Assembly (NCBI GenBank): GCA_001642005.1
Contig: LWCA01000007.1
Coordinates: forward strand, 41,675 to 105,674
From: Intoshia linei
Taxonomy: Eukaryota > Orthonectida > Rhopaluridae
Length of the DNA stretch: 64,000 nt
Direction of reading: 5' to 3'
Below, in pieces: positions 15,223-60,883 of the stretch. The position numbers and the translations under genes are program-made. Within the stretch, counting starts at the first letter, position 1. Each line of letters starts with the position of its first letter. The notes beneath the pieces are model-generated. The model saw only the letters and a list, made by a program, of their open reading frames with translations, was not told the origin of the DNA and did no database searches.

Positions 15223-16326
15223 TTATAAATTTTCAATGTCGTTTTTCGTTTTTAATAATTTAATCAAATTAGATTGATCCATGTAATGAATAAGTTTGTC
15301 AATTTTCTAAATAAAAAAAGTTTTAAAAAATATAAAATCTTTAGAAATTACCTCATAATCAAAATCTGTATAAAAATTGTTGAAATCATCATTAAGCACA
15401 AAAACTTGACCGCAAACCACTTTAAGTATCTAAATAATGATATTATTAACATGTAAATATGTACAATAACGGTTAAAATAGTACCTTTTGAAAAACCCGA
15501 AAGAAAGTCACATCAAAGTCGTCATTCATATTATTAGCAATAATGTGTGATGCACAATGAGTTAGGATGAATAAAAATGATCCGACATTAGCGCAAATCT
15601 CTTTTCTAATGTATAAAATATTTTGTTCATTTTGATAGTGAATGCAATATCTGAAACAATTTTGCAAATAATTATTGGGAGGAATTTGAGAGGCAAGTAG
15701 AATTTTAAAATTTAAGTTTAAATTGAGACAATTAATGAGTCTTTTAAAGATTGTTGTTCCAAAATTATAAATAATAAAATCTGTGCAGTCTAAACTTGAA
15801 GCAGGAATTATCTTGAGTTTAGAATCGAAATGATTGAAATTACTGAATAACGTAGTATAAGATTTGCAGTTTTTATATTTATTCAATGCAGTTAAACCGG
15901 GGTTCGAAGTGTTGATCATATTTGAAATATTTTCAATTTTTTTATATAGTACAGAATTTTGCAATAAATTCATGTATTGTGATTCCAGACATTTTTCTTC
16001 TTTGTGTGGATTATTATCTTCAAGTTGTTTAATTCTATTTGTTAGATATGAAGAGTTTTTATCAAAATTTGTTTTATAATTTGACATTAGTTTTTCGTGG
16101 TTTGTTTTAGATTCATTTAGTAGTTTTTCTCTTTCGTCTTCTTCTATGGTAGATTCTTTTATTTTTTCTCTTTCGTTTTTTTCATTTTCTAATTCTCGTC
16201 TCTTTTTTTCATTGAAATCATCATTTAATTGGTTTAATTCGTCTTCAATTTTTCTAATTTTTCTAAAAAATAATACATTTTCAACACATACAATACATGT
16301 ATGATTAATGTTTAAACACCAAGAAA
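15223..16326 (-). CDS. Giant protein: C-terminal coiled-coil exons
   Basis: Exons 15485-16326, 15352-15429 and 15223-15306. A highly charged coiled coil of about 80 residues (RKIRKIEDELNQL, NEKKRRELENEKNEREK, EEDEREKLLNESK) is followed by a globular segment with scattered Cys and His (NCFRYCIHYQ, LTHCASHIIANN). The final helix, KIDKLIHYMD, ends with the stop codon. The junction to the upstream exon uses donor 16664 and acceptor 16327 and closes in phase 1 (338-nt intron). An alternative is that the upstream reading frame simply ends at 16567 and this is a separate product. The phase match and shared strand favour one gene. Confidence 0.65.
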
Positions 16327-19300: not shown

Positions 19301-22300
19301 CCGGATTTTGTTTGCAAACATGAACCAACAGTTAAGGGATGAACTAAATTGGTAATTGGATCAATAAAAGTTTTTCCTAAAGCTATAAAATGTTTGCACT
19401 TGAAACAAAACGTTACAGCCAAAGTGGGAACATAAAATCCATTTTCGTAATCTAAAAAATAATAAGTGAAAAACGAACCAATAAATAATTATTAAATATA
19501 AATAAACTTACCAATAATGAAACCATCTGCAGACAAATAATCATTTTGAGTATGTTGATGCACATGAAAAGCAGTCATTTCTTCATTATTCACATCCACA
19601 GGCATTGGAATAAATGGGATTAACACATTTTTTCCATTATTGGAATTATTAATCAAAAGTTGATAATTATCGAGATAATTGACAAGTTTTTTCTGAACAC
19701 AATCATAAAACACATTACCTTCAATTTTCGAAAAAAAGCAATATTTTTTAGAGTAAAAGTAAGCATCTCTTTTGTAACATTTATCATTATTCGGATTAAT
19801 TAATGTGTAATCTTCTTTAAGCATGTCCAGTCCCGTCAACTTGTCGAAATATGTAATTGTATCAATATCATCTTTAATGGGTAATGTGGTCATGTGTCCA
19901 TCTGAATCTTTAAAATTTTTAATTTTTTTGTCCAAATTTATAATAGATATGAGTCTGTTCATATAATATTGTCTCATATTAGAGATTAAATGAACATTAC
20001 TGATTAAAGAGTTATATAAACTTGACGATGCGTCATTTTGAGATTTGTTTATTTTTATTAATTCACAACAATGTATTATGGCACTCAAAGTCGAATGCAA
20101 ATTAGAATTAAACAAAAAGTTTTCTTTATATATCCCCGTTATATAATCTTGTATTTGTTTGGATATTTTTGTAACTATTTCAGCAAAATATTTTCTTCTA
20201 ATAATTTCCTGGTTTAACATTTCCAAATGTTTATTTAATCTATAAAAATTAACGGTGTACGTTTCAGGTTGAGAGTCATCTTTAATTTTATTGACCATCT
20301 TTTCCAGTTTAGTTACATTTTGTTTTATATTACTGTAAAATGTACAAATTTTATTGTCAAAACTTTCAGATTTAAGTAAAATGTGGGCAGATTGCTTGTT
20401 TAATAAATTGTAAAACGTTTCTTTATTAAATTTATCCAGATCCAAATAAACGTTTCGCATTTCACTCAATTCGTCAATTTCAAAATCGTCAATATTTTCA
20501 TTACAATTTGCGTATTTATCTACACTTTCCAATTTTGTACCTCGGCTAGCTAATTTTGATAAATCAAACTTTTTTCCATATTGTCTGCCTTTCAAAGAAA
20601 CGTTACCCTTCTTCCATCCAAATCTTGTAAAAATTATCTAAATAAAAGTAAATACTTGCCAATATAAAACTTACATTTATTACGATAATCAACACGAAAG
20701 ACACAATGATAGTTATTATTGTTAAAATAAAAAATAGTAAATTTGATTTGACCAAAATATCTGTATTGAACGAAAATTTCATTGTATAAAAGTTTTGTTG
20801 CGTTTGATGCATAAATTTTTTATAACTTTGACATTTACTTGAGGCAGACATGACTGCTATGTAAATTTTTTTTCCGTGGTCCACACTGTGTTTAAATACA
20901 AATACTCCCGGTTGCATGAATCGATAGGGAAATATATTGTATGATTTTGTATTTGAAGTGTTTGTCTTAACATTTTCTAATAAATCAAATGCCTTTGTAT
21001 CCAAATTTGAAGTTGGAGAATTGAATAAATTTAATCTATACATTTAATAATTTTAGTATAATTTAGTGTATGTTATTTATAAGGGTTTCTCAACTTATGG
21101 TTCCCCGGGACGAAAAATAACTAAAATTATCAAATATGATTAGCTTATTAAAAAATTTTCGTATTAGAAGTTAGTTTTTTTAAATAATACGAGTCTTACT
21201 TTTTTAATTAAATGGTAACACAGAAATTCATTTATACACAAGTCACAAATTATAAAATTTTAAAATTTCATAGATTCAGGGGTTTAAAACCGCAGAAAAT
21301 TTGACCATCAAATTTTTTTATAAACTTTTTGTATAGCAACAAAAAAATGTTTATACTATTCAGGTTACTTGGTTACATATACCAAAAATATCTTAATTTG
21401 GTGATTCCCACACTATTTCACGACGATTGAATAAAAAATTATAGTTCAGAATTAATTTAGCGAGCTAAACTGAATAAGACATGCATAAATATAATAAAAA
21501 AATTTACGGCGGGTACGCACGGTTTTCGAAAATTTTGACGTTCTTGGATACAATTACGAACATAACTTACCGAAAAACTCTTCGGGTGTGGGAAGGATGG
21601 CTTGACAAAATTTTTGTAAAATGGGGGATCATTTTATAAATTTATATTAAAAAATTATATTCTTGAATATCATAACTATTGTTTTAAGTTTGAAATATCA
21701 ACTGAAGAGTCAAGAAGTAGTTAGGGCTATAGGACACTATATTTTATGTATATTTTTTTAGGGTCCAAATTTTCATTTTCTTCTCGTCAAAAGCTGGGTA
21801 GGTTCGGCTCTGGTTGAATGGATAGAATCTGATAATGTCGTCCCGTGTATGAGTCTATTTTATCAGTTTTTTTAATAAATATTTGACATGAATAAAATTT
21901 ATTATCATCGTAATTGTAAAAAAACATATTTTTAAAATAAAATTTGCTCTAAATAAACTAAAATTTATAGTAAGTTTTTTCTGATTACTTCAACTTAGTT
22001 ATATTCATAGACTCATATCTGGTCCAGAATCTGAATTCCAGATCATCTGGTATTTGATTATTTGTATTGCATTTTAATGTAATGCATTTTTAGTAATTTT
22101 CCAAATTTAATTTTTATTTTAGTCCAAAACTATTTGGGAATTTTAAATTTAAACCAAACTTAAAATACTACTAAAGGCTACCCGGAAGTATTGATATCAA
22201 AAAGAACTACTGAAGCAAATATTTTTTTAAACTAATGATGGTACAGTAATTAACACATTCTTTAAATAACTAGTTTTGTCAATACATGCGTTGGTGAATA

Positions 22301-25300
22301 AAGAATTAAGTTTATATGTATAGTTTGATTTTATCATTTTAATAAAATGTATTTTTATATGACATGAATACTGCTACAAAATTGATGTCCTTGTGGCGCA
22401 ATGGATAGCGCATCGGACTCCTAATCCGGAGGTTGCGGGTTCGAGTCCCGTCGAGGACTTTTTTTTATTTTAACATTAAAAGAATACAATTTAATTTTAC
22501 TCAATTTAGAATGTATATTTCATCCAATTAATTTGGACAGAGTTGCAACCTTATTACTATATAATAATTATAATTAATAAACCTATCAAAAATGGGATAA
22601 TTTTGATCATTGTGAATAAAAATGATAATTTCATTAATTTCCAAGCATACAATAGGATTATGAATCCCAGAAAATTCATTCTCTGAGATGACGCCATCAA
22701 ATTTAGATTCCGATGAGCATTCTGAATTTTGATTAAACAGTTTATAGAGCACATCAGTATTATAATGTTCAACGCCTATAATGTATTTATCAATCAAAAC
22801 TACAAAATTGAGAGGTTCCACGCGATCTATATGATGGGAGCAATATTTTTCACTAAGACTATATTCATAATTGGGAATATTTAAGCAACTAGTCAAAACT
22901 TTTTGCTTCCCAATTTTTACATATGACCGTTTTACAAATTCTCCGTTTCGACAATTTAAAGTTAAGTCATTGTTGATATTTGATATACATTTTGTGTCAC
23001 AAAACGTATTACGTTCCATTATTTTGCATAAACAACGACCCAATTGAACATCGAATCGAATAAACAAATTTGAAGAGTCACAAACCTATAGATAAAAAAA
23101 TGTCACTAATAGAATTGATATATATGTACCTCATTTTTACAGTGTTGATCAAGCCAATCGATAGTCACACAATCACCATACTCATTACGAATTAAATGAT
23201 TATCGCAGTTATTATATACATGTCTTTTACATTGATAGTAACCGTTTATTTTTGCAGTGTCTGATAAATACGTACCTATTTCACAAGCACATGAGCGACT
23301 ACTCGTCTAAATTTTTGTTGTAATTGTTAATATACCAATTTATATACCTGATAGTACAAATTTTTGTTAGGTGGGCAAACGCACGAATTTTTTGTTATCA
23401 AACTATGCGTTCTTTTGCTTCCACAGTGTATACAGCTGGACATACCAACCATGTGCGTAAAGTAATTTGATTTGCAAGGCAAACATTGTCGTACATCATC
23501 CTTTCCAATAAATCGGTTAAAATACCCAATAGGACAAGGCGTAGGAATTCCACTTCCCATGGGACAATAATGACCTAAATCAGATTAAAAATGTAATTTT
23601 AATTTCTACCTATTGGACAAATGTATGATGTGTTCTGTAAAGCCCAATTTACACTATTCGCAATCGTAGAAATGTTGTAAGAAATTGTCGCCGTCGGACA
23701 AACTTGTTTACTCGGGCATAAATTACATTTCAGTCTTGTTTCGTCGCCATAGTATCCTGAGGGGCAAGGTTGACAGGTATTCTTAAAGGAATCTTGATTG
23801 GAACCAATAATATACCTGTACCCCAATGGACATTTGATCATACTAACAGCACCGCTGTTTTCTCCCAATGGACAGTAATGTGCTATTGGACATTTTATGG
23901 GTATCTCCTAATTTAAATATTTTAAGTTTTCAATTTTATCTTAATCTTTATCATAATATTTTAATTCGTACCGAACTTACAGGACAATAATATCCAACAG
24001 GACATTTAATTTTTTGAATTATTTTAGGACAAAAATATCCTAAATTGACAATTTTAAGTAAATTGAGTAAAATAATTTCACTTCATTGTTAAAGTAAATA
24101 AAAGTATTACCAATTGGACAATTGGAAGGAATTATAGTACCAGTCGGGCAATATTTACCGCTATTGCATTTATTTAGAGGAACATTCAACGCGACTTGAT
24201 CACAATCTATTTAAACTAATATTATTTGAAAAAACCAACATTATTAATTGTTAATTAATTACAATATCCTTCAGAACAAGAGAAACAGTCAAAATTTGAT
24301 TTTCCATGAGTATTATTTCTAAATATACAATTTCAAGGCGGTAATTACAACACCGGGGGATAAAGTGCTAGGAAACTAGAAATTAAAATATCTTGGTGTC
24401 AATAAAAATACTATGAAAATTTTGAAGTACTACAAAATCTTAAAAATGACAGTATAGCTTGTTTGTTTTCCGCCCTCAGTAGAGCTAGGTGCTGTTTGTA
24501 CAAAGCAAAAACAGTCAAGTTAGTATAAAATGCTATAGAATGTATACCTGAATGTAGAGACGACGCAAGGCTTGATGGAATCAGCTTTAATTGGACAATA
24601 ATTTCCAATTGGACATTCCGTTAATTTATACAGTACAGTAGCTTTTCTTGAACAAATATACCCTGCAGGACAAAATTTACACTGAAATATAGATTTTGCT
24701 TCTTCAAAATCCAAATAAGTACCCTTTGGGCATCCGACCATATTTCTAAGAAAATATATATAGAAATATAATTATCAATACTTATTATATTCACAATAAT
24801 GGCCAACACTACACGGTTTAGGAATGACAGCTCCAATTGGACATTGTTTTCCTTTATTTGAAAATTATAAAATTACATGAATATAAATAATACCAGCAGG
24901 ACAAAAATCACAATCATTAATAGATTTCGCGCCAATCATGTTAATTACTTTACCGTCCATGCATTTTTCAGGTTTTTTACAGCCTTAGTAAATTAATTAA
25001 CATACATGTATTATTAATTAAAATATTTTAAAATAAATTAATTGAATTGAAAATACCTATTGGGCACCAATATCCATATGGACTAATCATAATTTAAATT
25101 TTTCATTAGAAAAATTACCATAAACTACCAATAACGGGATATGATGAAACTTCTGGATTTGAAATTTTGTTTCCAGAAACACAATAAAACCCAGCATCGC
25201 AATCACCAGTAATTTTACCACTTTGACAATATTTACCTAACGGACATATGGTACATTGTGAGGCATCTTCAAGTTGATCGGTAGTTGCGTCAGTAAATGT

Positions 25301-28300
25301 TCCTACATTATTTGGATATTTTATTTTTAATATAATTTTACCATCCGGACATGTTATGGGTTCAACAGAAGCCAAAGGACAATATGAATAAGCTGAACAA
25401 ATTGTTGGTTTAATTGTGGCTAAATCTTTACAAAAAAATCCTAAAATTATAAAAATCAAAAATAAATCAGCAATGCTCATAAATTCATAAACGTCAATCT
25501 TGTTTAAATTTGTAAAGATTTGAAAGGTTACCTTTTGGACATTTGATACAAACAGTACTTTGTATGGAAGGTTGAAAGTATCCTAGTTTTATTTTACGTA
25601 TTCATTTATAATAATTTACCTTTCTGACATTTTAAAGGTTCTAAACTTCCGACAGGGCAATAATGACCTAATAATAAAATAATCATTAAACAAAATTGAA
25701 CCAAGTAATGAAACGTTCATTGAAAACGTAAAATACCTTTAGTACACTTATGATTGGTAGGTCGAGCTGTAGATCTAAGTTCGTTATCGGGACAAAAGAA
25801 CCCTGCAGAGCATACATCAGTAGGTTCAAAACCACCAATTTTATCACAATAATGCCTTCCTATGCAGTTTAAACATTCAGATGCCTGTTTGGCACCAATA
25901 TTTGATAAAATCATTCCTATTGGACATGGTGTACCGCTTATTGCGCCTAAGTTAAATGGATTATAATGATACAAAGTCATTATAAATAATTACCAGCTAA
26001 GCAATAATTTCCTTTTGGACATGGTATGTTAACATTATCATTTGGAGAAATAGATTTTGATCCGCTTATACAAATATATCCAGCAGCACATGAACCGGTC
26101 GGTGCAGATAAACCATCTATATTATAAGTATACATTTATATCAACTATTTCATCAAACCAGAATCACAGTATTTACCCGAAGGACAATATTTACATGCGA
26201 TTTCACTCCTACCACCAACATTGGGGTTAAAAGTTCCTAAAATATAACATAATTTATAATTTTTTAAATTGGTCATGCTCAATAAAATATATGCATCAAA
26301 GTTAACTAGTACTAGTACCTTTGGGACAATTAATAGAATTCTTAATAGTGCCTTCTTTGCAGTATTTACCAACTTCACATTTTATTGGAGTTATTGTTTC
26401 TAGTTCTGGACAACGAAGGCCAGATGGACAAATTTTACAGGCTCCTAAATTGATGAAATATTAATAATCTTTTACTTGTATAAAATTGAAAGTGTTTGTG
26501 TGTTTACCGTTTATTTAAAAAATTAAGTCACAGAATTTAAAAAATCAAATTATAAACAGTTTTTTGTGAGTGTTTACCCAAGTTTCATTGTCCGAAATTG
26601 AGTCCTTCAGGGTCAAAAATCAAATTTACTCATTTTTTTAAAAATAAAATCAGTCAAAAATTTTAAACAAACATTAACATGAAGATTAAATCATTAAAAT
26701 TGTCGTAAATCAAACATTTTTTACATTATACACTCATTCTCACTAATGAATTAAATAAATTGAATGGTAATGTGAAATGACCGGTCCGCGGTGAAAAAAT
26801 TTTTGGTACGAATCAGTTAAACTTTAAAGGATTGAACATATAGTATAGTACCATTTTTTGAATAAGATTTTATTCAATTTATTTTTTTGGTAGAATTATA
26901 AAAGTTCGCCCTCGGCAGAACTAGCTACTGTTTGTACGAATTTCATAACATTCAAACTAGTTCTTTAATAATATTTTGTTTTTAAATGACAAAAATTTAA
27001 GCAAATAATAAAATTACCCAATCCAATAATATCAGCATAAGTACCTATATTCGAAGATTGATATAAACATTATATTAATAATTTGATACCTGCAGCACAC
27101 TTTGTTGGGTTTATTGCTCCTTCCGTACAGTAATTACCTTTAGGGCATGCATATCCTAATATTTTGATTAGAAATTAAAAAATCATAAAAATTCTATATA
27201 CAAGGTTTGTAATGGTGAACATTAGTTATATAAAAATATGTATATACATTGTACACGTATTTCAGATTTCTTGTCCGTTTGCAACCATTTATTTAAGAAA
27301 AGAGTCCAATAATTTTAAAAAACACCATTTCTAAGACATTTTTTTCAGAATATTTTATTACCCCTTTCAATCAGAGCAATTTACATTGTCATATTCAAAA
27401 CGCATTATTTTAATAAATTATTTCAGCAAAAATAAAAAATATTCAATAATGATAATTGATAGCCCTAAAATTAAATAAAAGGTTAATTGTAACCCATATC
27501 AGATTTTCTGCTGTTAAAACCTTGTGACAGTTAAATATTTTTACACCTGTAATTTAGTTAATATTAATTTCTTGTTAATTAAAATATGATCACGTAATTC
27601 TCCGCTAAAAATTGCATACACATTGAAAAAAAATTGAAATAGTAAATTAAAAATTAATCAACTAAAATTAATTGAAATAACTTAGTTGTTATGATGTTGT
27701 TAATTAATATCTTTTAATTTAATAATGATAGCGAACTGTAAAATTAAAAAGAGAAATATTATGTTGATCACGAAAATTTTAGCTTTTCAATCGTACAAGT
27801 TGGTATAAGTCGCATTGAGGTTTTCGGAAATTTTTTTTCATTTTATTGTGCAGTGTTACAATAAAACTGTTTTCCGTTTAAAATATATTCAAACAAACCT
27901 ATGACATTATCCGTTGGCGCCTTAATATACGAACCGGTCAAGCAGATGTAGCCAGCTGCACATTTCCTCAAATTTACTAAAAAATTAAAATTAGAAGAAA
28001 TTTGAAAATCACCATTAAATATGCATGCAAATAAAAATGTTGATATAATAAATAAAATACATATTGAGTCTGTTCCAATTTCACAATATCGACCAGCTAT
28101 ACACTTTGTACATTCTGAAGATTTAGTGAGTCCTTTGGTAATTGAATAAGTTCCCTTTGGACAAGGTGCAGGATATAAAGTTCCTTCTAAACAAAAATAT
28201 CCCAATTTACAGATATTGGAAGCTAATTTTGGATTTGATTGACCTCCACTACAATAATATCTAAAATTGACATTTAATAATCCATTAAAAAATATCAATA

Positions 28301-49300: not shown

Positions 49301-52300
49301 CTGTTATAAACTTTAAAAATATTAGTTTATATACCTTTAGGGCAATAAAATCCTTTCGGACAAATTTTTCCTGTAGTTCCGTCAATAGGTTTCTGTATTT
49401 TTGAACCAGAAATACACAAATACCCAGAATCGCATTTTCCAGTGGGATTTGTTACACCAGGCTGAGAACAAAAGTAACCAGGGTCGCACTTTTTACAGTC
49501 TGCAGAACTACCCTTACCTAAAATAAATATGTATATCAAATCAAAAGATTAATATGCCTTCAAATTCATTATAACTTCCAACAGGACAAGCGATAGGCGA
49601 AAATGTGGAAATTGGACAATAATGCCCCGCAGGACATATTAGTGGATTAACAGTTGCAACACCACAATAAAAACCAGATGTACAAGCTATACAGTCTTCT
49701 AGTTTTGATTTTTTATAATAAATATTGTATGTTGCTTGTGGACATTTTATTTGTTTTGGTCCGTAAGAACCAATATTTCCGTATGAATTTGAAAATGGAT
49801 TTGCAATGTTTGATGGGCAATAGTATCCTTTATCGCTATAAAAATATATATAAACCGTTGATTTATGGTTTTTTGAATTACCATTGACCATCTGGGAATT
49901 GTTTTCCACCGGTACAATATTCACCACTTCTAAGATTCATAATATTAATATTGTAAGTGCAATGTACTTAGTATATATTATTAATAAAAAATTAAGATCT
50001 CACGTCGTTTCAAGGTGAACGATAGTGATATGCATTTATAACATGTTAAAAACATTTTACCTACACATTGTACATTCACTAATAGATTTTAAACCTTCGG
50101 TGGCCCCAAAAGTTCCAGCTGGACATGATATTGCCACGTTTGTACCTATAAATTCATATCGTATAATATACATATTTGTGAATTATTGCATTAATTATAT
50201 CAGTTATTATTATAGCATTTTAAAATTAAATAATATATTTTAAAATTTAAGTAATGTTATTAATCAATATATAATCATACCCTCTAATGAATATTTTCCA
50301 GGTTTAACAATTTCTGCAGTGGATATGTCTATTGTTCCAGCTTTACACAAATAACCTATTGAGAATATTACAGTATTACTTTAAAAAATGATCAGAAAAA
50401 TAAAGTTAATAATATGATAATAATAATAATATACAAGCGTATTTCTATATTAAATATCTCTAATATAGAATCTACATTATACTACATTGTATACATTGTA
50501 CTACTTTATCTTATATTAAATATGTATATACCTGCTGTGCATTTCGCTGTAAGCATTGTTGTTTTAGATGTAGTAGTTGATGAGCACATGTACCTAAATA
50601 CATAATAAACGTAAATACGTATAACAAAAATTTAAAGAAAATACCCTTCCAAGCACGTTTCACATATTGTACTTTTGGCCAAACTATACATTCCTTTACC
50701 ACACTATTTATTATATATAAATTGAGTTATAATAAAATCAAATTAAAAAATTACTGATGTTGTTTATTAATAATAAAATTTGACAAAATAAATAATAATA
50801 TTACTGCTATTGCAACATTAGCTCCCTTTTTGCATATACTACCTATTTGTATACATAATAAAAATTCATAAAGTTAATAAAAATAATATTATCAATAAAG
50901 CTGTAATTATAACCTGCCGGACAATCTTGACAATCTTGTATTTTTGAAGCTCCAGTATTACCTTATTATTATTATATAATCATATATTATATTGTATAGT
51001 ACCTGTTATAGTTAACGGAACATAAGGATTTGTTTTAGATGACTCGACAGTTACTCCATCGGTCATAAACGTTCCTTCCGGACACATTATTGGTTCAATC
51101 TGTAGATTTTTAGAGTTTATTTATATAAAAATATTACAGTAGACACTCGAAAAGTGACAACTTCGTATAGGTGACCACTTCCCAAAAGTGACCACTTTTT
51201 AAAAATATATATAAAAAATCCATACTAATATAAATAAATTTCTCTTCGAAAAAGTGACCAAAAATATAAATTAAAACATGTCAATTTTATTGAAGACCAA
51301 ATTAATGACGTTACTGACAATAGCAATATAGGAGAAAATGAAGAATAGAAAGATTTTGAAGAATTAAGAAAGGATGTCAATTATTAGCATGCAATATTTA
51401 ATAATCTTAGAAATTATGCAAAACAACATTGTCCAAAGAATCTAGAACAGTGGTTTTGAAATGAGGGGTCGCGAAATTTATTATGGGGGTCGTGAGAATT
51501 TGAACACAGTATAAAATATAAATAAAACTGAATACGCTTTTTTAATGTTTTCATTTATGTGAATTGATAATATGTTTGGAGTATATATAAAATTTTTTAT
51601 GCTTATAAGGGGATCGCGAACACAAAAAAGTTGAAAACCACTGATCTAGAAGATATATTTATTGGAAAGCAAAATGATACAATCCTCAGGTGTTTCAAAT
51701 GAAACCACTCTGAAATATTTTTGTATAATAAACAAAGAATATATAAGCTTAGAAATTTCTCGTTTGATTTTTAATATATTTTCAAGGTCATAGTCAACGT
51801 AATTAATAATTTTAGTCGATTAATCAATCAGCTTTTGTTTCAGTTATTGTTAAAATGATAAATATTATGGTATGTAAAATGAATGAAATAAAAGTGATGA
51901 AAAAAAATGAAAAATGAAAATGAGATAAAATGAATACTATATTTTAAATAACATGTAACTATAGTGATATTATCATTTCAACTTTAGTGGTTAAAGTGAC
52001 CAAGTTGCCCAAATAAGTAGTCACTTTTCGAGTGTTTACTGTAATAATATTGTACTTAATTTTATTAATTTATAATTGTAGAAAGCAGGGATATAACATA
52101 ATTATAGTAAAACACATATATCAGTGTAAAGTACATACCGAACTTTCGGTGCAATAGTGACCCTGAAGACACTTTCTGCATTCTGCTGCTGATTTACCAC
52201 CGTAATCTGAATTGTATGTTCCTGCCAAACATTTTGCATTGTTTGGATTTTTTGAGCCCGCCACACAATAATGCCCAGGATCACATCTTCCTGAGGTCGT

Positions 52301-55300
52301 AGTTTCCCCTTTTCCTATAAATTACAATTTTAAGCTATACATGGTGATATTTAGCTTACCTAAGCAAAACTCACCAGCTGGACAAGTCACACAATCGGAT
52401 GATTGTGAATAACCTGCCGCGAGGCCATATGTTCCAGGTGGACATGGATATGATTTAGCATATCCTGTTGAAGTTGGACTATACATCGTTTTAATTTAAA
52501 AAAAATTGCATAATACCAGTAGTAACCCTTTGGACACTCTAAAAAATGAATCAAATAAAATAACTAATTAATAAAAAAAAAATTTTATAAAAGTTACCTA
52601 TAGGAACGTTTTTACATCCACTCAGTGTTGATTTACCTAAATTATAGATATGCATTTTTATGATAATTATGATATCATTAATATTCCACCAAATTGACTT
52701 TTTAATTATTTTTAAATTTTTACTTAAACTTTTTGACAATCTATTTGACAAATGTCTTCTGATGACAATTTTTAAAAACGTTATTAAATCAAATAAAATT
52801 TACTCTAATAAAATGTAAAATATTAATTAGTATTATGAATTATATCGAAAAAATTACAAGTTGAATCTAAGCAATAAAATCCTACTGGACAAGAAGAACA
52901 TTCTGTTGATAGTTTTAGACCCATAGTATTGTCGACAGTGCCACTTGGACAAGAAATTGCTCTTGATTTTTTTGAACCAGTCGGACAGTAATAGCCTAAA
53001 ATTTCAATATTTCATCAAAGGAAATTAAAATATAATTACCAGCTTCACATGTAATTGATAACGAATTTAGACCAATCGAAGGACAAGAAAATCCAGACGT
53101 ACAAGGCAAACAATCTGACAACAATTTTGATCCAATATTAGAATTATAGGTCCCGGTGGGACACGGACTAAATGTTGGTTAATAATTCAAAATTGAAAAC
53201 TATAATATACGCAACAAATTAAAATGTTACATAGCATCCACTATTGGCTTGGTTCGACTTCCTTTAGGGCAATAATGTCCAGCTATGCAATTTAAACATT
53301 TTGAAACCGCTAATAATGAAAATAAAAATTATTTAATTTATTTGCAAATAATAATATAATTAACAGTCGTAATCATATGCTATATAAAATATATCACGTC
53401 TTAATGCATTGGCCGTCACACTCGTTTTTTTATCACCACCCTGCAGAATTAATAAACATTTTTCCACGTTTTGAATTAGTTATACGACAGTTATTATTAG
53501 TGGTTTAAAGATGTAGAAAACTATATAATTATAATATTCGAAAAAATATCTTTCATTTAATTTGGTCAACACTGTCTTACTGCATGATAATTATGATAAA
53601 ACGGATATTTTTTATTTATTATTTATGTTAATTAGGTAAATTAATTATTTATTAAAGAATAAATATCACCGTCTGCCTGGATGCTATTTCCATAAGTTCC
53701 TTCAGGGCACAATTTGCCTTGCGATGAACCTAAAATTTTAAATAAAACTTTCATTATAACATTATGTAGGAAAATAAAATAATTATATAATGTGACGTAC
53801 CTAGAACACAGTAAAATCCTTTTGCGCAATTTCTCGGAAGATAACTGCCTAAAAATTAAAATAATTGTATTATTGTTAAATTGCATATTATTAATTTGAA
53901 ATAGATGAAAAATTTACCTTCTAGACAATACGACCCGGCAGGGCATATTGTACATTCATTAGCTAAACACATGTATAAATGTTATCGTATAAATAATTAA
54001 TATTTTATATTACCGGCTGTAAGAGAAGTTGATGCACTATACGTTCCCTCTAAATTAAATTCAAATAAATAATGAATCAAAAACAATTAAATAAAAAAGC
54101 TAAATTTAATTAAAAGAAATAAACCTTTACAAGGAAAATCCATACAATTTGTTGTTCTTTCAGGACAATAGTAGCCTTTCACACATGGAGAGGATGCTGA
54201 TGTTGATAAAGCTGAGGTAGAACAACATGTTCCCGCTGGACATGCTTGGCAAGCGTCTATTGACGAGGAACCAGTATTACCATTATATGTTCCTAAAATT
54301 ATTAATTTGTAACCATTAACAAAGTTTTTATACTCAATTTATATCAATTTTATGTGAATCATTTTCACAAATTGAAAAACGAAAATCTATCATATGAGTA
54401 AAATGTTACCAATAGGACATTTGAAAGAATCTTTTCCATCACAATAATGTCCAATTTTACATAATCCAGCAGTTGGGTTAGGAACAATAGATCCAGATTC
54501 ACAAACATAGCCAACGGTACAAATCGTACAATATAGTGACCCAATAGATGAATATGTTCCTTTATCGCATTGCTTTTTTTTATAATCTAATTCAAATATA
54601 TATTATTTTAGTGATTATTGGAAATAACCTTCAGTATACAAACAAGCATAGCCTAAATTATTTTATTAATTGAATATTTTTTGAGAAGACAATGTCTGTT
54701 AGGCATTGATTAATTAAGAATTAATTATATTACCAGCTTCACATTGTATACATATTGTTTGTTTTTTGGCAGAATAATAACCAGAACTGCATTTAACAGG
54801 TCTTAGTGTTTTAGTTGCACATTTATAACCGGATGGACAATCAATACAATAATATGAACTTCCCAGAGAATACTGTCCAGCATCACAAGCAGTTCTAAAC
54901 TCGTACTACAAATGATGAATTGAATTCGAATGCAGATGGCGGAATCATTTATTCGTTAATTTATTCGAATTATTCTTATCATCCTTTTCATAATTATAAT
55001 CGTTTACTTATATAAAATTGAATATACGTGTGGGTTACCGTTTATTTAAAAAATTATCAATCCAAGAAAAATAACCCAAATTTTCATTCAGGTTTTTGAA
55101 TGTCATGTTTTAATCCAAGATTCATTTTCAGAAATTGATTCTTTCAAGGCGAAAAACCCAATTTCCACTTTTTTTAAAAAAATAAAATCAGCCCTAGAAT
55201 TTTCAAAAACATAAATTGCAGGACGCGTTTTAAAATCATTAACGTTATTGTAGAATTTTTTTGAAAGAATTTTCCAGAAACGTACATTTTAACGTTAAAA

Positions 55301-58300
55301 CCACAAATTACCCTTTTATTGAAAAATTTAATAGCCCTAAAATTTTAAAAAAAATTACATTTCATTTAGTTGTCTCCAGTTAATACGCATTAAAAATTTT
55401 AATTTCACAAAGTAATGCTTTCACGGCCAAAAAATCACTATTATTTTGTAACTATTTTATTAACAAACATGTAAAACAAAAATTTTTAAATAATTAATGA
55501 TTCTATAATTTAAAAAAAACTATTCTAATACAGCTTATTCCAGGTAATATAGACATAAAATTTTAACCTCAGAAATCTACGTATTCCCGGTGAAAAATAA
55601 TCTTGAATATATTATGAACCAATATTTTTCAAATTTTTGAATTAAAATTTAAATATTGATCCTACAATTTCGAAAAAAGTGGGAATTGACGGTATGGATA
55701 TTTAAAATACAGTAAATATGAATTTCAATCTCATGAATTGATGAATTATGTTTTTTTATCATTTCTACGCAATTTCTAATTTTCAATAACTTTCAAAGTT
55801 TAAAATCAACTTTAATTACAAATATAACTTTGATAATATAATTTTTAGTTTTATTTCAATGTTGGTAGCATTACTTTATCCTAAATGTTTGATTGAAGAA
55901 AAAGTATGTAAATTAAATTTTAAATTTTATTGGTATTTAAAATTTTATTTTTTCTGGAATTCATGTTATTTATGACGATTTTTATGGTTGTTTTTAAAAT
56001 AATACAATCACTTTCTATAAATAATCGAAAATTCAGCCCGGTAGAACTAGCTGTTATTTGTACGAAGTACATGACAGTCAAGCTAGTTTATTATTATTAT
56101 TATGGTGAATAATATAATTAATTTGGCTTACACTATCGCTGTAGTCGTAGATGGACAGTAAGACCCAGCTGGACAAAGTGTACAGGAAGTACTACTTGCA
56201 AGTGCGTATGATCCGAGAGTACACTTTGTTATTGTGGCTAAATATTTTTTTAATAAATAAAATATGTAAAAAGTGTGTGCAAAACTAAACCTATACTCTT
56301 AGATGGACATATACTTCCGGCTACACATACATGGCATTTATCGTCGCCAGCTACCGAATATTCGCCAGAATTACATTGAGTTTTCGCAATCGTTGTACAA
56401 CTATAACCGGCTGGACATATGATACACTCTTCTAATCCCACCGTTGAATATGTACCATATTTACAATTGACTGGCAAATAGGCTCGATTTAATATGAATT
56501 TTCCTAAATTATAATTATTATAAAATGTATAATTACAAAATTTTAAAACAAAAAGATCAGTTATATATTTTCAAAATAACCTGCAGGAGATATAGTACAT
56601 GTTGTACTCAAGGGTAAAGCATAGTGTCCAAATGCGCATGAATACTCTTTAAATCTATTTCATAATTAGTAATTTACCATATAATGCATACCCGTCTGTA
56701 TAGTAGCCACCTCTACTAGGAATACAATACATATTTCCAGCTTCCGAATAGTAACCATCAGAACATTTCGTTTTAGTTACATGACATCTATAACCTTCTG
56801 GACAATAAATACAACTGGTTGATTTAACAGCACTGTAATATCCTATAAACATCATATACAATATGTTATGTTTCATGAGTCAGCAATAGGTAACATTTAT
56901 CAAAAGTACGTCAGGTACTACGATAAAGTGGGACAATTTTCACATAAATTATTAAATTATTACCTTTTTCACATAAAATAGGAATACTATAAGCGTTTTT
57001 ACAATAGCTACCGGCTAAAAATTACAAATAAATTTTTTAAATCAAATCTAGGAATTGATGAATATTACCGGGACAATCTGTACATGCAGTAGCTGTTGGA
57101 GTTTCAACGTTATACGTTCCTAATTTATTCAATTATTAAATTTAATACTGTTTAATACATTCCATGTATATTGAATTTTGATATAATATACACATTGTAC
57201 AATGTACAGGGGATAGATTTTATTGTCAAAGTAATGATATTTTTTTATTTAAACTGATACATACAAATCCAATTCGAAGGCAACCCAAAATAAAAACCAA
57301 TTCAGAATCACCATTAATTCATTAGAATTAGCTTCTTGATGAGACAATGGTGTAAATTAAATTACTTTTACTTACTATTTAATTATACACTTTATAATGT
57401 ACATTAAATTTAAATTAATTGTTTATGTAATTTGTAAGGTAGACGAGTACATAATAAAGTAAAAGACATTTCAGTATGGAACTCATTTAGTCCTAGATCG
57501 GAATGTTTATAGGCAAAATTGTGAAATAATGTACCATGTAATAATGTGTCGTTATTATTTATTGTTTTTAAATATACCTGATGGGCATGGAACAGGCAAA
57601 ACATTATTATTAGTACAAAGATTTCCATCCGGGCATAATGTACATTCTAAAAATAAATATAAAAATAAAATTTTGAAATAAATACAAATATTTCATTGAA
57701 ATAAAAGTTTTATAAATAATAGGTTTAAAAAAATAATATAGTACAATGTACATAAACAATTGTACAACACCAAGATATATTACTAGATTTTCCAGTTAAA
57801 GAATAATATCCAGCAGGACAAACAACAGCTTTTTCGTTATTTTGACAATATGAGCCAGCCGGGCAAATAATGCATAAATCGGTGCCTAATAAAGAATAAT
57901 AGCCTTCTTTACATTCTTCTGCTTGTCTTTTTTCGTTGCATTGAGAGCCAACAGAACATTTGAAGCATTTTATTTCTATTAAACGTAAAATTAATTGTTA
58001 CTACATGCATTATAATATAATGCTTACATTAATCATAAATACATTAAAAATTACGTCCAAATTGAGACGTATAACCAGTGGCACATGCAATCGGAATTAC
58101 ATTATTGTTTAGACATGAAAATCCAAAGGGGCATGTTATACATTCTATTGCCTTTGCAAGTGAATAAGTACCAACATTACAAGCTGATTCGGTAATTTTA
58201 TTAGCACAATGATATCCAGCTGTACAGGGTGTACACGTATTTTCACTTGTTGCTGAATAATACCCATAATTGCATGGTGTAGGGTTTGTACTAAAAATAT

Positions 58301-60273
58301 AAAAAAATAATCAAGTCATTAAATCTTATCAAATATATTGAAAATATAAAATACCCAGATGAGCAGTCAAAACCACCAGGACAGTCATAACATCCTGTTC
58401 CCATAGCATTTATTATTTTTCCTATAAATTAAAGTATTGTAATTTACACGATAAAATAGTAATACATATAGTAATAAATGTATGCTTTTTTGGCCGGGTA
58501 GATGAATGTTTATAAGATTACAATTAATGATATGCTCAGGTTTTATATATCTCAGATGTTGTGTTATTTAAAATTCTAACCCCATAATTTACAAACAGAC
58601 AGATAAGTAGACAAAGTCTAATACTATACATCATGGGTTCTTAACTTTTTTCAACTTGGCACCACTTAATTCAATAAAATTCAATTTGGCACCCCTAGAA
58701 TGTAGTAAACTTAAATTTAAAAAAAGTTAATAATATCATAATAATATACGGTAACAAGAAATTTCTAGTTGAAATGGCTAAAATGGCTTTAAATTTAAAT
58801 TATAAAAAACATTTGAACATAAAAAATACTGTGGTTTGTACGATTTATCAGTATCATTTATTTTAGTATCGTTTAATATTAACCGATTTGATTTTTTTGA
58901 TAAATTCTTAAAATCAAAAAAGGCATCCACGTGCAAAATAGGTTTTTCTAATAAAAAAAATTGGACACCCTAATATACATATTATAAATATTTAATATTT
59001 TAAAAAGTTAAATTAATAAATAAAATTTAACTTAATTTTCGAAACTTCATTCAACTTTAAAAATTATAGCTACAAAATCATTTTTATTCAAAAATTTTCT
59101 GGTACCCCCCAAAAACCGGTTTTCATTCCAGCACTCCAGGTTAATAACCAATGCTATTCATTTTAGATATTTTACTTTCAATAGGTAAAGATGAATTATA
59201 AAGTCATTATTTTATAATTTTTAATATTTTTTTAAATTACCGGCAGTGCACGAAGTACATGTAACAACACCAATATCGGAATATTCTGTGTCAGCGCATT
59301 TCGTTATGGTTGTCGTTGTGCATTTATAATCAACTGGGCACAATTCACAAGTTGTTGCACCTGTAAATGTTAATTATATATTTTACTAATATTAAAACTA
59401 ATATTAACTTGAAAATAAGAACTTAAAAACACCCAAAATGAAAAAATTGAGTAAATTTAAAGTATTTTTAAAATTTTGTATCATTCATCATAAGTTTTCT
59501 ATAACCATTCACTAGTTCAGTGGTTCGTCACTCCTCTGCAGCGCCATGTATTTTTATCAAAAAGTATATTTTATTAGTGGGAAGTTCCCATTGGGAACCA
59601 AATACGAAAAATTTTCTAACAAAAATGAATTGTATTATACATGGTATATATTCTTATCCTTTCTCTATTTCTCTCTATTGGTGAATTAGATAGATAATAC
59701 TGTATTTGCTTAATTTGCTTATTTTCTTCATGTATTATAATGACTGAGCATGAAAAATCGTTCAATATTTTTAGTTTTTATTCTAACCTGTAGTTAGAGA
59801 GTATTGATTTGCTGGGCATGCGATATGGTTTGATAATCCATCGGTAGGACAATAAAATCCAGATTCGCAAGTTTTACCTTAGAATAAAATAAATTAAAAA
59901 TAATGGATTTATAATAAATTTAAATACACGTTTTTCCATCAGAGTAGGTGCCAGCCAAGCAAATAATAGGCTGAAAAGTTCCTACATTTTCACATTTATA
60001 CCCCGGTTTACACGTTGTGCATGATGTAGAACCAGAGGTATCGGTATATTTTCCAATTATGCAGTTTACACAAGCCGTTAAACTTGTTTGAGAAGTGATG
60101 GCATTGCTTGTACCAACCGGGCATGGTATAATTGATATAGTACCATCTGGACAGTAAAATCCTTTTGGACAAGTTTGACAATTTAATGACGTGTCTAAGT
60201 ATTTACCGCTAATGCAGGGTGTAATGGAATAAATTGATTTAACAATAAGAAAAAATAATAATAAGCGAATCAT
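15223..60273 (-). CDS. Giant GCC2/GCC3-repeat single-pass membrane protein (whole locus)
   Basis: One minus-strand gene of about 45 kb with dozens of exons. It starts at 60273 with a signal peptide. It continues with a very long array of cysteine modules (CPxGxY ... CxxCxxGxYC, GCC2/GCC3 or ephrin-receptor-like type), by eye well over 100 CxxGxYC half-modules. Near 23.3-22.6 kb is a non-repeat Cys-rich region. A cupredoxin-like module is split between exons 22583-23085 and 20675-21035, a transmembrane helix follows, and the cytoplasmic tail ends at 15223. From 23085 to the stop codon I checked every splice phase and all close. Introns in this part are 1547, 37, 60, 1158, 338, 55 and 45 nt. 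In the ectodomain most modules are cut by 40-100 nt introns; exon edges there are approximate. I recall a similar architecture in large uncharacterised proteins of marine invertebrates, so this is probably a conserved metazoan surface protein of unknown function. An alternative is two or more adjacent genes, but I see no second signal peptide. Confidence 0.82.
16665..18001 (-). CDS. Giant protein: cytoplasmic exon with short DxxT repeats
   Basis: A single 1337-nt exon. After an acidic helical start it has four tandem units of about 16-17 residues between 17510 and 17730: IGSKYFDIEN, ILGTMYDTSQDKLFPL, GLMHTIDKTEKIPIE and FGKMTIDYNTLGI. Each is a hydrophobic pair plus Gly, then Asp, a turn, and a hydrophobic-Pro-hydrophobic strand. 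A Cys-rich loop (KNCHTVCKTVQSTCPPP) and a long helical region (to 16680) follow. The repeats resemble the DPxTG...P units I associate with the tails of large invertebrate GCC2/GCC3 proteins; this is from memory and unverified. Confidence 0.75.
18080..18432 (+). repeat. Dispersed repeat family A, copy in giant-gene intron
   Basis: AATGATTTTAAAACGAGTATC, AAAAAAAGGAGGAATTCGG and TTTGACCCTGAAGGACT occur in the same order and spacing as at 6690-7022. The right edge, TTTAAATAAACACTAAC ... CATTCAATTTTATAAGT, is also shared. It lies in the 1158-nt intron 18002-19159. The rest of that intron is AT-rich, with a 9-bp-arm palindrome TAGTACCAA/TTGGTACTA near 19065-19083. Confidence 0.6.
19160..20637 (-). 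CDS. Giant protein: membrane-proximal cytoplasmic exons
   Basis: Exons 19512-20637 and 19160-19451 are joined in phase 1 across a 60-nt intron. They begin just inside the membrane with TRFGWKKGN and continue with KKFDLSKLASRGTKLESV, an acidic segment (ENIDDFEIDELSEM), a predicted helix around FNKETFYNLLNKQSAHIL and further helical coils. They end in beta-type DPxT units (FIDPITNLVHPLTVGSC, GFYVPTL). The order Trp-rich junction, basic stretch, acidic stretch and FY..L helix appears characteristic of this protein family, in my recollection. Confidence 0.8.
20675..21035 (-). CDS. Giant protein: second half of cupredoxin-like module and transmembrane helix
   Basis: The exon begins with LNLFNSPTSNLDTKAFDLL, then IFPYRFMQPGVFVFKHS and KKIYIAVMSASSKC. 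The F-Y-F-xxPG-x-Y/F-xF pattern is typical of cupredoxin-like beta sandwiches. It then runs into a hydrophobic helix of about 23 residues (LLFFILTIITIIVSFVLIIV), the only clear transmembrane segment outside the signal peptide. The exon ends in phase 0 at a 37-nt intron (20638-20674). I cannot confirm copper ligands; the module may be structural only. Confidence 0.8.
21575..21650 (+). repeat. Dispersed repeat family C, copy
   Basis: CTCTTCGGGTGTGGG ... TTTTTGTAAAATGGGGGATCATTTT matches the block at 9975-10060. Confidence 0.5.
22387..22459 (+). tRNA. tRNA-Arg (anticodon CCT)
   Basis: The full cloverleaf can be folded. Acceptor arms GTCCTTG and CGAGGAC pair over 7 bp with one G-T. The D arm lies in GCGCAATGGATAGCGC. 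The anticodon stem CGGA/TCCG encloses loop CTCCTAA with anticodon CCT, which reads AGG as arginine. The T arm GCGGG-TTCGAGT-CCCGT carries the B-box motif, and TGGCGCAATGG forms the A box. No intron is present. A run of eight T follows from 22459, a standard RNA polymerase III terminator. The gene lies antisense inside an intron of the giant gene. Confidence 0.97.
22460..22466 (+). terminator. RNA polymerase III terminator of tRNA-Arg
   Basis: An uninterrupted T tract starts at the discriminator base and runs to 22466, followed by A. Confidence 0.85.
22583..23310 (-). CDS. Giant protein: non-repeat Cys-rich region and first half of cupredoxin-like module
   Basis: One exon covers about 23130-23310 (SCACEIGTYL, GYYQCKRHVYNNC, GDCVTIDWLDQHC) and one covers 22583-23085 (VCDSSNLFIRFD, LGRCLCK, CDTKC, LNIPNYEY). 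The periodic CxxCxxGxYC pattern stops here. The exon finishes with GIHNPIVCLEINEIIIFIHN and YPIFDR. This reads as the first strands of a cupredoxin-like domain that continues after the tRNA-bearing intron. Confidence 0.78.
23320..28265 (-). CDS. Giant protein: ectodomain repeats, membrane-proximal block
   Basis: Many short exons encode Cys modules. Good examples are 23340-23570 (GIPTPCPIGYFN, QCLPCKSNYF, CVCPPNK), 23605-23870 (CQPCPSGYYGDET, CNLCPSKQVC), 24540-24741, 25120-25440 (CTICPLGKYCQSG, CDAGFYCVSG), 25735-25950, 26145-26450, and 27895-28263 (APCPKGTYSITKG, CTKCIAGRYCE). Intervening introns are mostly 40-100 nt. The larger ones (24230-24540, 26470-27020, 27160-27890) hold repeat sequence or AT-rich filler without recognisable content. 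Confidence 0.78.
24471..24524 (+). repeat. Hairpin repeat (end of family A), copy 2
   Basis: CCTCAGTAGAGCTAGGTGCTGTTTGTACAAAG ... AACAGTCAAGTTAGT. The middle is the least conserved of the five copies. It lies in an intron of the giant gene. Confidence 0.55.
26478..26970 (-). repeat. Dispersed repeat family A, apparently complete short copy
   Basis: It starts TATAAAATTGAAAGTGTTTGTGTGTTTACCGTTTATTT, which matches 55015-55060. It passes through GAGTCCTTCAGGGTCAAAAATC and TTAAATCATTAAAATTGTCGTA (core of the family). It ends in the hairpin GCAGAACTAGCTACTGTTTGTACGAA ... CATAACATTCAAACTAGTTC (26908-26964). The copy is about 490 bp and fills one intron of the giant gene. Confidence 0.6.
28340..29090. 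repeat. Inverted array of 28-30 bp tandem units
   Basis: It lies inside the intron between about 28264 and 29400. Four units of the type ACCAACCTTTAAGGGAAAA-TCCAATTTT run from 28508 to 28640. About eight units of the opposite orientation (GGTTGGTAAAAGTGGGTTTTTCCCTAA) run from 28685 to 28905, around a 40-bp centre. The array could fold into a long hairpin. Flanks at 28340-28480 share words with 33300-33540 (GGACGAAC-GAAA type), suggesting that the array sits inside a larger mobile repeat. Confidence 0.75.
29400..36640 (-). CDS. Giant protein: ectodomain repeats, central block 1
   Basis: Short exons with Cys modules. Clear ones are 29960-30160 (CESGTYQ, CEDCPPGYFCDA, CPKGYYC), 30835-31000, 31830-32085 (CPKGHFCPKRSF, CKLCTVGKYCEG, CAEGYFCES), 33010-33170, 33785-34230 (CPSGYYCPEGS, CASGKYCASGT), 34300-34410, 35140-35490, 36005-36115 and 36225-36640. 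Introns over 300 nt are at 29570-29950, 30180-30700, 31440-31820, 33200-33780 (a copy of the flank of the 28340-29090 repeat), 34430-35140 (family A fragment ending in a hairpin, and a TA microsatellite at 35119-35139) and 35490-36000 (nothing recognised). Confidence 0.75.
33295..33545. repeat. Dispersed repeat related to the flank of the 28340-29090 array
   Basis: AGTTTTGGAACTGCTGGATTAAATAAAGGATAGACGAACGAAACCAGTTTTGG corresponds to AAAACCGTTGAATTAAACAATGAATGGAGGAACGAAATAATG at 28410. GAGGGATAGGGCCATACGACG corresponds to GAGGGACTACGGGAGCATGCGACG at 28342. This copy lacks the tandem array. Confidence 0.5.
35053..35104 (+). repeat. Hairpin repeat (end of family A), copy 4
   Basis: TTGTTTGTACGTAGTACATAAAAGTCAACCTAGTT keeps the GTAC-GTAC core and the right arm. 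The left arm is eroded. A family A core fragment lies upstream (about 34800-34870, GGGTCAAAAAGCCCAATTGTCC). Confidence 0.5.
36959..37509. mobile_element. Non-autonomous hAT-type element, 551 bp
   Basis: The left end is CAGAGCCGTTTTAAAGC, followed by GGGC and a CCCAAGGCCCC block. The right end is GGGCCCCGAAGTGGCTTAAGACGACTCTG. Reverse-complemented, the right end starts CAGAGTCGTCTTAAGCC and matches the left. Flanking 8-mers are CTTTCAAG (36951-36958) and CTTTCAAA (37510-37517), a 7 of 8 match to the hAT target duplication. No transposase frame is present. It sits in the largest ectodomain intron (about 36645-38155) of the giant gene. Confidence 0.78.
38155..43660 (-). CDS. Giant protein: ectodomain repeats, central block 2
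   Basis: Exons with Cys modules occur throughout 38155-40485 in dense array, with introns mostly under 120 nt. They continue at 41055-41450 (CRFGENPLSC, KKCPAGSYC), 41850-42060, 42175-42600, 42700-42870 and 42970-43660 (CSPGMYCE, CDAGYYCTSG). Introns over 300 nt: 40490-41050 contains a relic with GCCGGTCCATG / ACCGGTCCATGG direct words, perhaps a decayed hAT end; 41490-41850 contains a repeat shared with 55450-55650. Confidence 0.75.
41494..41720. repeat. Dispersed repeat family D, copy 1
   Basis: It shares with 55450-55650 an ordered series of words: TTAATGRTYCTAWAATTT, ATTCTWATACAGCTTATTC, CCTCAKAAATCTAC, CCAATATTTTTCAAATTTT. Both copies are in introns of the giant gene. Confidence 0.55.
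43670..44200 (-). other. Intron of the giant gene, about 0.5 kb
   Basis: It contains AT-rich sequence with decayed words resembling hAT MITE ends (ACGCGGGTCGCTAAAG near 43857; ATGGAGCCATGGGCC near 44000). An 82-codon open frame across it shows no coding character. Confidence 0.35.
44200..51105 (-). CDS. Giant protein: ectodomain repeats, central block 3
   Basis: The best-preserved stretch of the array. 45010-45420 encodes at least four modules (ICPIGHFCTSG, CPSGTFRSTTG, CAKCPTGKYCDG, CPEGSSVQIIC). 45500-45700, 46125-46460 (CSAGYACP, CKAGTYQDEIG, CKVCKSGFYCP), 47755-48010, 48025-49080, 49340-49520 and 49550-49920 continue the pattern. 50060-51105 is similar but more broken up. Introns over 300 nt: 44590-45010 and 46470-46825 (no recognisable content) and 47340-47750 (two small palindromes, GGGACCCGTAGGGTCC near 47349 and GGGACAGTGTCC near 47567). 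A hAT MITE fills the intron at 49082-49330. Confidence 0.78.
49096..49303. mobile_element. hAT MITE, 208 bp, copy 1
   Basis: Terminal inverted repeats CAGTGGTTTTCAACC and GGTTAAAAAACCACTG are flanked by a perfect 8-bp target duplication TTATAAAC at 49088-49095 and 49304-49311. The interior carries GGGGGTCGCGAAATTTATCAGGGGGTCGTGAG near the left and GGGGGTCGCGCAC near the right. It lies within an intron of the giant gene. Confidence 0.92.
51137..52041. mobile_element. pogo/Tigger-like element, 905 bp, interrupted by a hAT MITE
   Basis: The left end CAGTAGACACTCGAAAAGTGACAACTT and the right end, read in reverse as CAGTAAACACTCGAAAAGTGACTACTT, match over about 27 bases. TA dinucleotides flank both sides (51135-51136 and 52042-52043), as expected for Tc1/mariner/pogo insertions. 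Between 51270 and 51700 are broken coding remnants (for example FEELRKDVNY, NNLRNYAKQHCPKNLE) that might be the C-terminal part of a transposase; this is tentative. The whole element lies in one intron of the giant gene. Confidence 0.8.
51448..51643. mobile_element. hAT MITE, 196 bp, copy 2, nested in the pogo-like element
   Basis: Ends CAGTGGTTTTGAAATGAGGGGTCGCG and GTTGAAAACCACTG are flanked by a perfect 8-bp duplication ATCTAGAA (51440-51447 and 51644-51651). Its interior is about 85 percent like copy 1 by eye. It splits the pogo-like element's coding remnant. Confidence 0.92.
52100..54904 (-). CDS. Giant protein: ectodomain repeats, distal block
   Basis: Short exons with Cys modules at 52135-52310, 52370-52530, 52595-52640, 52865-53340, 53650-53740, 53800-53850, 53920-53965, 54015-54055, 54125-54290, 54410-54590 and 54735-54904. 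Many cover only half a module, and introns repeatedly fall near the CxxC pairs. The intron at about 53460-53640 and others are AT filler. Confidence 0.72.
54905..56131 (-). other. 1.2 kb intron of the giant gene filled by repeats
   Basis: It contains family A core (55010-55340), family D (55450-55650) and the hairpin end (56036-56090), in that order. These may be parts of a single long repeat of about 1.1 kb, of which the other copies are deletion derivatives. No coding remnant is seen. Confidence 0.55.
55010..56095 (-). repeat. Dispersed repeat family A, longest copy
   Basis: Start TATAAAATTGAATATACGTGTGGGTTACCG, core GATTCTTTCAAGGCGAAAAACCC and GACGCGTTTTAAAATCATTAACG, family D words at 55450-55650, hairpin GTAGAACTAGCTGTTATTTGTACGAAGTACATGACAGTCAAGCTAGTTT at 56042-56090. 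Confidence 0.55.
56132..59880 (-). CDS. Giant protein: ectodomain repeats, N-proximal block
   Basis: Exons at about 59789-59878 (KTCESGFYCPT), 59241-59362 (CELCPVDYKC), 58355-58425, 57780-58300 (several modules), 57575-57650, 56950-57125, 56665-56840 (CIYCPEGYRC), 56255-56500 (CIICPAGYSC, CHVCVAGSIC) and 56132-56240. Introns over 300 nt: 57160-57570 (palindromic TACATTGTAC-type words near 57190 and none else), 58430-59240 (a block of ACTTGGCACC words near 58655 and a ACCCCCCAAAAACCGG block near 59105, possibly the two ends of a decayed hAT element) and 59365-59785 (CAGTGGTTCGTCACTCC near 59519, a likely isolated hAT end). Confidence 0.72.
59928..60273 (-). CDS. Giant protein: first coding exon with signal peptide
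   Basis: It starts MIRLLLFFLIVKSIYS, a typical signal peptide with a basic residue, a hydrophobic core and a small residue at the likely cleavage point. Three modules follow at once: CISGKYLD, CQTCPKGFYCPDG, CPVGTSNA, CVNCIIGKYTDTSG, CTTCKPGYKCE, CLAGTYSDG. The donor at 59927 leaves phase 1 and joins the next exon through a Cys codon (GKTC then KTCESGFYC). This is the only start in the locus that has a convincing secretion signal. Confidence 0.88.
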
Positions 60274-60883
60274 TTCAATATTTAATAATCCCTCATAATA
60301 TTTACGTTGTACATATTTTAATGACTAATTTGTATATTAAAGTGTATCAACCGGTATACTTATCAACAAATAGTGACCAACGCAATTTATTTTGAAATTC
60401 CGTTGTTAAATTCCAAACAATACTAATTAATATTATAAAAGTCAATAATTTGACTGTATCTAACGTACGTGTGTATATGTTTATGCAAGTTCAGCAGTAT
60501 TGTTTTTAACTTTTGAACATTATAAATACTAAAAATTGTAGTTAAATTTAGTTATTTTTAAATGCGGCTCAAATGAATTTATAATAAATCATAATTTACA
60601 ATACGTTAAGGTGAGTTGGAGACTTCATAAACGGATTAAAAATTATTTTATAAACAAAAATATAAAAAAAATCAACTAAAACGATATTAAACACTGGTTG
60701 TCATATACTAGAAACGACGAAGTTCCAACGAATTTGAATATTTTTAAAATAACACTCCAAATACAATTGAAATGTTACAACTTGTATAGCAATAAAATTG
60801 TATCGCACTTGATAAACCAGTATAATTGAAACGCAGTAATATTTAAAAACATATAGTGACATATAGTGACTTAAAAATATATA
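60274..60883. other. Divergent promoter region between the giant gene and the serpin gene
   Basis: 610 bp with no coding character. A short direct repeat ACATATAGTGACATATAGTGAC lies at about 60849-60870, directly before the serpin start, and TTAAAAATATATAATGG surrounds the serpin ATG. No other element is recognised. Confidence 0.45.

Follow-up and report, generated by a model that had tools for sequence, protein, structure and literature searches.

What kind of protein is encoded by positions 15223 to 60273 of the 64,000-nucleotide window analysed here, and is this 45 kb stretch one gene at all? The window has a GC content of about 28 % and is part of contig C895, in a 34.65 Mb assembly of 1,319 contigs; an earlier, sequence-only reading had proposed a single giant receptor-like gene. 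We consider that the locus is probably one gene for a giant single-pass animal surface protein, with a stalk of GCC2/GCC3 modules, a Cys-rich cap and a docking tail that carries a pseudo-zincin domain. The features of the gene are:

15223..60273, minus strand: whole gene, modelled coding sequence of 136 exons and 6,423 amino acids
60226..60273, minus strand: signal-peptide-like start MIRLLLFFLIVKSIYS, judged from the sequence itself
23486..60225, minus strand: GCC2/GCC3 (Ephrin_rec_like) array of about 100 complete or incomplete modules, its introns mostly in phase 1
22660..23485, minus strand: Cys-rich region without repeats that follows the array and can be aligned with the paralogue on contig C10
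22583..22659, minus strand: first half of a cupredoxin-like segment, by pattern resemblance
20831..21035, minus strand: second half of that segment, after a hand-made splice (22583/21035, phase 2)
20678..20734, minus strand: single transmembrane helix FFILTIITIIVSFVLIIVI, by hydropathy scan
15223..20677, minus strand: modelled cytosolic tail, 1,277 amino acids beyond the transmembrane helix
20637-19512, 19451-19160, 18001-16685, 16418-15485, 15429-15352 and 15306-15223, minus strand: main exons of the tail in the gene model
16022..16213, minus strand: long helix or coiled coil ahead of the terminal domain (AlphaFold helix 2-65)
15400..15826, minus strand: conserved C-terminal domain with a predicted zincin fold (pseudo-metallopeptidase); the three-dimensionally modelled part stops at 15476
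15545..15559, minus strand: HCASH in the sequence, an HxxxH motif with Cys in place of the metallopeptidase Glu

The gene model was obtained by a Viterbi procedure with splice-site weights trained on 193 introns from the window region and other loci (donor consensus AG/GTA, acceptor TTTAG/), and intron penalties of -3, -5 and -7 were tried. It runs on the minus strand from an ATG at 60273 to a stop at 15223, and its coding sequence of 19,272 nt makes up 42.8 % of the 45 kb. As 57 % of the modelled span is intron, the argument of the sequence-only reading that the size of the gene implies selection is a weak one. The introns of the joined model have a median length of 71 bp, and 94 of the 135 are in phase 1, against one third expected by chance (binomial P 8e-18). 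The join between array and tail was set by hand at 22583/21035, on coordinates from the earlier reading, and yields a single open frame with a phase 2 splice. We accepted it because the paralogue on C10 carries the same segment, from the PIVCL to the PGVYV motif, as one uninterrupted frame. The two window halves align to C10 across the junction at 31 % identity, over a 187-residue piece that includes the transmembrane helix, and the segment alone has a local score of 83, the best of 2,000 shuffles having 74. On this model we take the array and the tail to be one gene.

The ectodomain ahead of the transmembrane helix comprises 5,127 modelled residues, in line with the earlier estimate of more than 5,000, and the proposed signal peptide and huge GCC2/GCC3 array were both borne out, the former by the look of the sequence. 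The array covers residues 17-4754 and holds 506 Cys in 4,738 residues, which, together with a single transmembrane helix, would suit long-range contact or tension sensing. A module profile gave 100 rows at E≤1, 93 of them under 1e-3 and 71 under 1e-9; built from the same array, and with overlapping rows, it gauges regularity rather than homology. Homology comes from Pfam Ephrin_rec_like (PF07699), which exceeded its cut-off at three places of the contig within the gene; in open reading frames (ORFs) of the array it passed the cut-off in two of three in one scan and reached it in one of two in another. Kinase, VWA and sushi domains were absent from the window ORFs scanned with Pfam. The cupredoxin-like module fared less well: the segment had no Pfam match at E≤10, cupredoxin was not among the 11 matches of a PDB profile search, and its identity stays a pattern resemblance. 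The transmembrane helix (20734-20678) is the sole strong hydrophobic segment in the 6,423 residues besides residues 4024-4042, a second stretch that we judged to be a retained intron. Tandem repeats of 28-29 bp and 20 bp were seen at 28513-28972, inside a 1.1 kb modelled intron of the array.

The cytosolic tail proved to be the most informative part of the protein. The short repeats reported for it were not recovered: self-BLAST of 1,273 residues returned only the self-match at E≤1, and TRF lists no tandem repeats at 15-21 kb. Pfam scans of tail exons and ORFs gave nothing beyond weak and inconsistent matches, with no kinase among the matches at E≤1 in four tail ORFs, and two tail exons searched against the same genome found only themselves. 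With the window tail as query, 5.8 billion proteins yielded 919 candidates, none at E≤0.01; a second search with the tail yielded 351 candidates and again no relative. PDB sequence searches gave no credible match, and a match to Cdc6 (E 0.006), mostly ahead of the cupredoxin-like half, was taken as chance.

Relatives were found by another route. Large invertebrate proteins of this layout end in a characteristic stretch, and a consensus of about 125 residues was used as a query, serving as a lead only. This search returned 128 candidates, 82 of them at E≤0.01 and mostly 55-70 % identical to the query. Five of the 82 carry a species name, all annotated ‘uncharacterized’, from four sharks or rays (si:dkey-103g5.4 of Heptranchias perlo, LOC134340886 of Mobula hypostoma, LOC122540626 of Chiloscyllium plagiosum and an entry from Scyliorhinus torazame) and one lizard (LOC117060321 of Lacerta agilis); the other 77 are without one. 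The test profile was built from the 82 database proteins alone, the query consensus not being used, and it matched the window ORF 15476-16432 (minus strand) at 140 bits and E 1.9e-41 among 3,555 sequences, the next unrelated ORF standing at E 2.4. The match takes in the helix pair and the coiled coil ahead of the domain. Nine positions are invariant in 52 aligned rows (Y150, G153, A175, P179, N186, L201, G212, H220 and H224); A175, P179 and N186, together with the HxxxH helix, suit a kept function better than decay.

By these sequence comparisons, the tail stretch is real and conserved across animals, and its domain is apparently without a described family or function. The 52 aligned members have no Pfam family in common (24 families, one member each), and neither do 30 members in NCBIfam (three families, one member each). 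No paper on the family was recognised in the literature searched, a scope outside which most subscription papers fall, and a pattern search gave 39 genome-contig and 74 viral-contig matches, none of them confirmed. The proposal of a conserved and undescribed metazoan surface system is supported for the tail domain and, by gene modelling, for the linkage of array and tail within this genome. The domain is present at least in this animal, in four cartilaginous fishes and in a lizard, and its distribution may be far wider, given the 77 unnamed relatives.

The domain is predicted to adopt a zincin fold of the minigluzincin/Wss1 type. HxxxH is present in all 82 database members, its second position being Cys in 71, Ala in 10 and Thr in one, and never Glu; HExxH occurs nowhere in any of the 82. 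The search consensus itself carried HCLAH, a mild bias for such motif counts. At the Wss1 spacing the consensus has no His as third zinc ligand, and D233 is nearly invariant. The Wss1 mutant E116Q is described as inactive, with self-cleavage of the mutant during crystallisation also mentioned (PMC5557861). With the Glu missing throughout the 82 members and E116Q described as inactive, the sequences are most simply read as those of a pseudo-metallopeptidase. Zinc binding would be possible in most members. This predicted domain, and its presence in at least four genomic copies, had escaped the sequence-only reading.

The copies were located by a query against the same genome (window 5e-24, C563 3e-17, C1022 4e-15, C10 4e-9), and the 82-member profile confirmed those on C563, C1022 and C10 (4.9e-33, 5.5e-35 and 2.1e-18). 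Their motifs read HCASH in the window, HCLSH in C1022, HSLSH in C563 and NGLSF in C10, where zinc binding is unlikely. The C1022 and C563 copies sit near contig ends. C10 carries an array, Cys region, cupredoxin-like segment, transmembrane-like stretch and tail domain in this order on one strand, chained by a 68-exon gene model in which some exons are tiny and weak; the transmembrane-like stretch was read by eye and is skipped by that model. Whether the tail has homologues attached to GCC2/GCC3 arrays, a point on which the sequence-only reading had staked its proposal, is thus answered inside this genome only, by the modelled C10 locus. According to the gene models, C10 bears a tandem pair of array genes, and C626 holds further array or tail-domain copies; C626 might belong with C563, and the second C10 gene with C1022, as parts of single genes. 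Ephrin_rec_like arrays of what we take to be a different, SVEP/SCUBE-like style occur on C610, C973, C1065 and C612, a number of them as long open frames of up to 1,808 amino acids. The genome reads as that of an animal, with these neighbours of the giant gene in the window:

1203-5237, minus strand: SPT6, from the Pfam scan of window ORFs
9211-13808, plus strand: ORFs of ankyrin/UNC5-like appearance, with a Death-like domain whose E of 3e-4 narrowly misses the Pfam cut-off
60875-61945, plus strand: serpin ORF of 356 amino acids, head to head with the giant gene

How could such a protein work? We propose a very long extracellular stalk built of about 100 disulphide-bonded GCC2/GCC3 modules, with the Cys-rich cap and what is probably a small beta-sandwich adjoining the membrane outside. 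Inside, the tail would run through a coiled coil, which could pair two chains, to a zincin-like domain that lacks the catalytic Glu and keeps both His of the helix. Most likely, the stalk would make far-reaching contacts with matrix, cuticle, a neighbouring cell or a cilium, and the tail domain would be a non-enzymatic dock in which a peptide from a partner protein occupies the old substrate groove, perhaps still in the presence of a metal; outside contact or tension would thereby be coupled to a scaffold inside. More tentatively, and as a possibility we would not favour, the protein could represent an undescribed class of giant receptor that signals without a kinase or channel, the stalk reporting contact or tension to an HCxxH pseudo-metallopeptidase that reads a partner peptide, possibly with either zinc or the Cys as a switch.

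Several observations weigh against a single functional receptor gene. Left unforced, none of the three penalties produced the 22583/21035 join: at -3 the array chain stops at 21773 and a second gene begins at 21043, at -5 a 130-exon chain (ATG 60273 to 22528) is followed by a 7-exon chain (21043 to 15223), and at -7 the model breaks into four genes. Both splice sites at the join have low scores (0.7 and 0.2), an ATG stands at 21043, and a tRNA-Arg (CCT) gene lies at 22387..22459 on the plus strand, within the modelled intron 22582-21036. Two or more genes, namely one for an array protein that stops at 22528 and another for a transmembrane and tail protein from 21043, with the tRNA gene between them, would account for this. 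We regard this as very improbable, however, given the exact joining of the frame and the alignment of both halves to the uninterrupted C10 frame. A structural component of matrix or cuticle, with a space-filling array, a transmembrane helix and tail that only anchor and sort it, and a relic zincin-like domain, is a stronger contender, if still a doubtful one: the array is very long, the motif of C10 has decayed, and most of the tail is unalignable between paralogues (C10 and window tails align clearly over about the last 230 residues only, E 4e-10, with one further match at 0.011). The nine invariant positions would nevertheless be unexpected in a relic.

In the same protein, the tail domain might instead be a metallopeptidase that is active despite its unusual site, in which Cys or some other residue stands for Glu, and that is released or switched on by engagement of the ectodomain as in BlaR1. 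This seems improbable in view of the missing Glu, the reported inactivity of Wss1 E116Q (set beside the self-cleavage that the same paper reports) and the C10 copy, which is without both His. A parasite surface molecule facing host tissue is rather unlikely as well. The genome resembles that of a compact, simplified animal, perhaps an orthonectid, in its assembly size, low window GC and short introns, it has at least four tail-domain copies, and the orthonectid median intron of 57 bp given in PMC6543705 compares with 71 bp in our model; the presence of the tail family in free-living vertebrates, however, argues that its basic role is not parasitism. The docking surface protein encoded by one gene remains our preferred explanation. 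If the tail of such a giant surface protein does bear a pseudo-peptidase, zincins would join the enzyme folds that animals have reused as non-enzymatic signalling parts, among them kinases, phosphatases and rhomboids, and the HCxxH groove would offer a concrete handle for finding partners.

No known receptor architecture was recognised in the protein, as the sequence-only reading had held. Ephrin_rec_like or GCC2/GCC3 modules occur in Eph receptors, SCUBE, SVEP1 and apicomplexan CRMPs; the window protein has the same Cys module, in about 100 copies. Eph receptor tyrosine kinases have a cytosolic kinase, whereas the window tail has none by the Pfam scans above. The bacterial sensor BlaR1 has its zinc peptidase in the cytosol; the window protein differs in its single transmembrane helix, absence of HExxH and unrelated ectodomain. 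A Hydra table has an entry for a ‘gcc2 and gcc3 family protein’ but gives no further information on it (PMC6019070). The minigluzincins (abylysin, jannalysin and selecase) and Wss1/SPRTN-type proteases share the predicted fold, with the HxxxH helix about where expected and no sequence similarity detected in the PDB sequence search, but the window family lacks the catalytic Glu and sits on a receptor-like tail. Also close are the si:dkey-103g5.4-like vertebrate proteins: their entries have 294-463 amino acids, lengths that fall within the range of the search, and they end in the same C-terminal domain, with an HxxxH that, as in the window, is without Glu.
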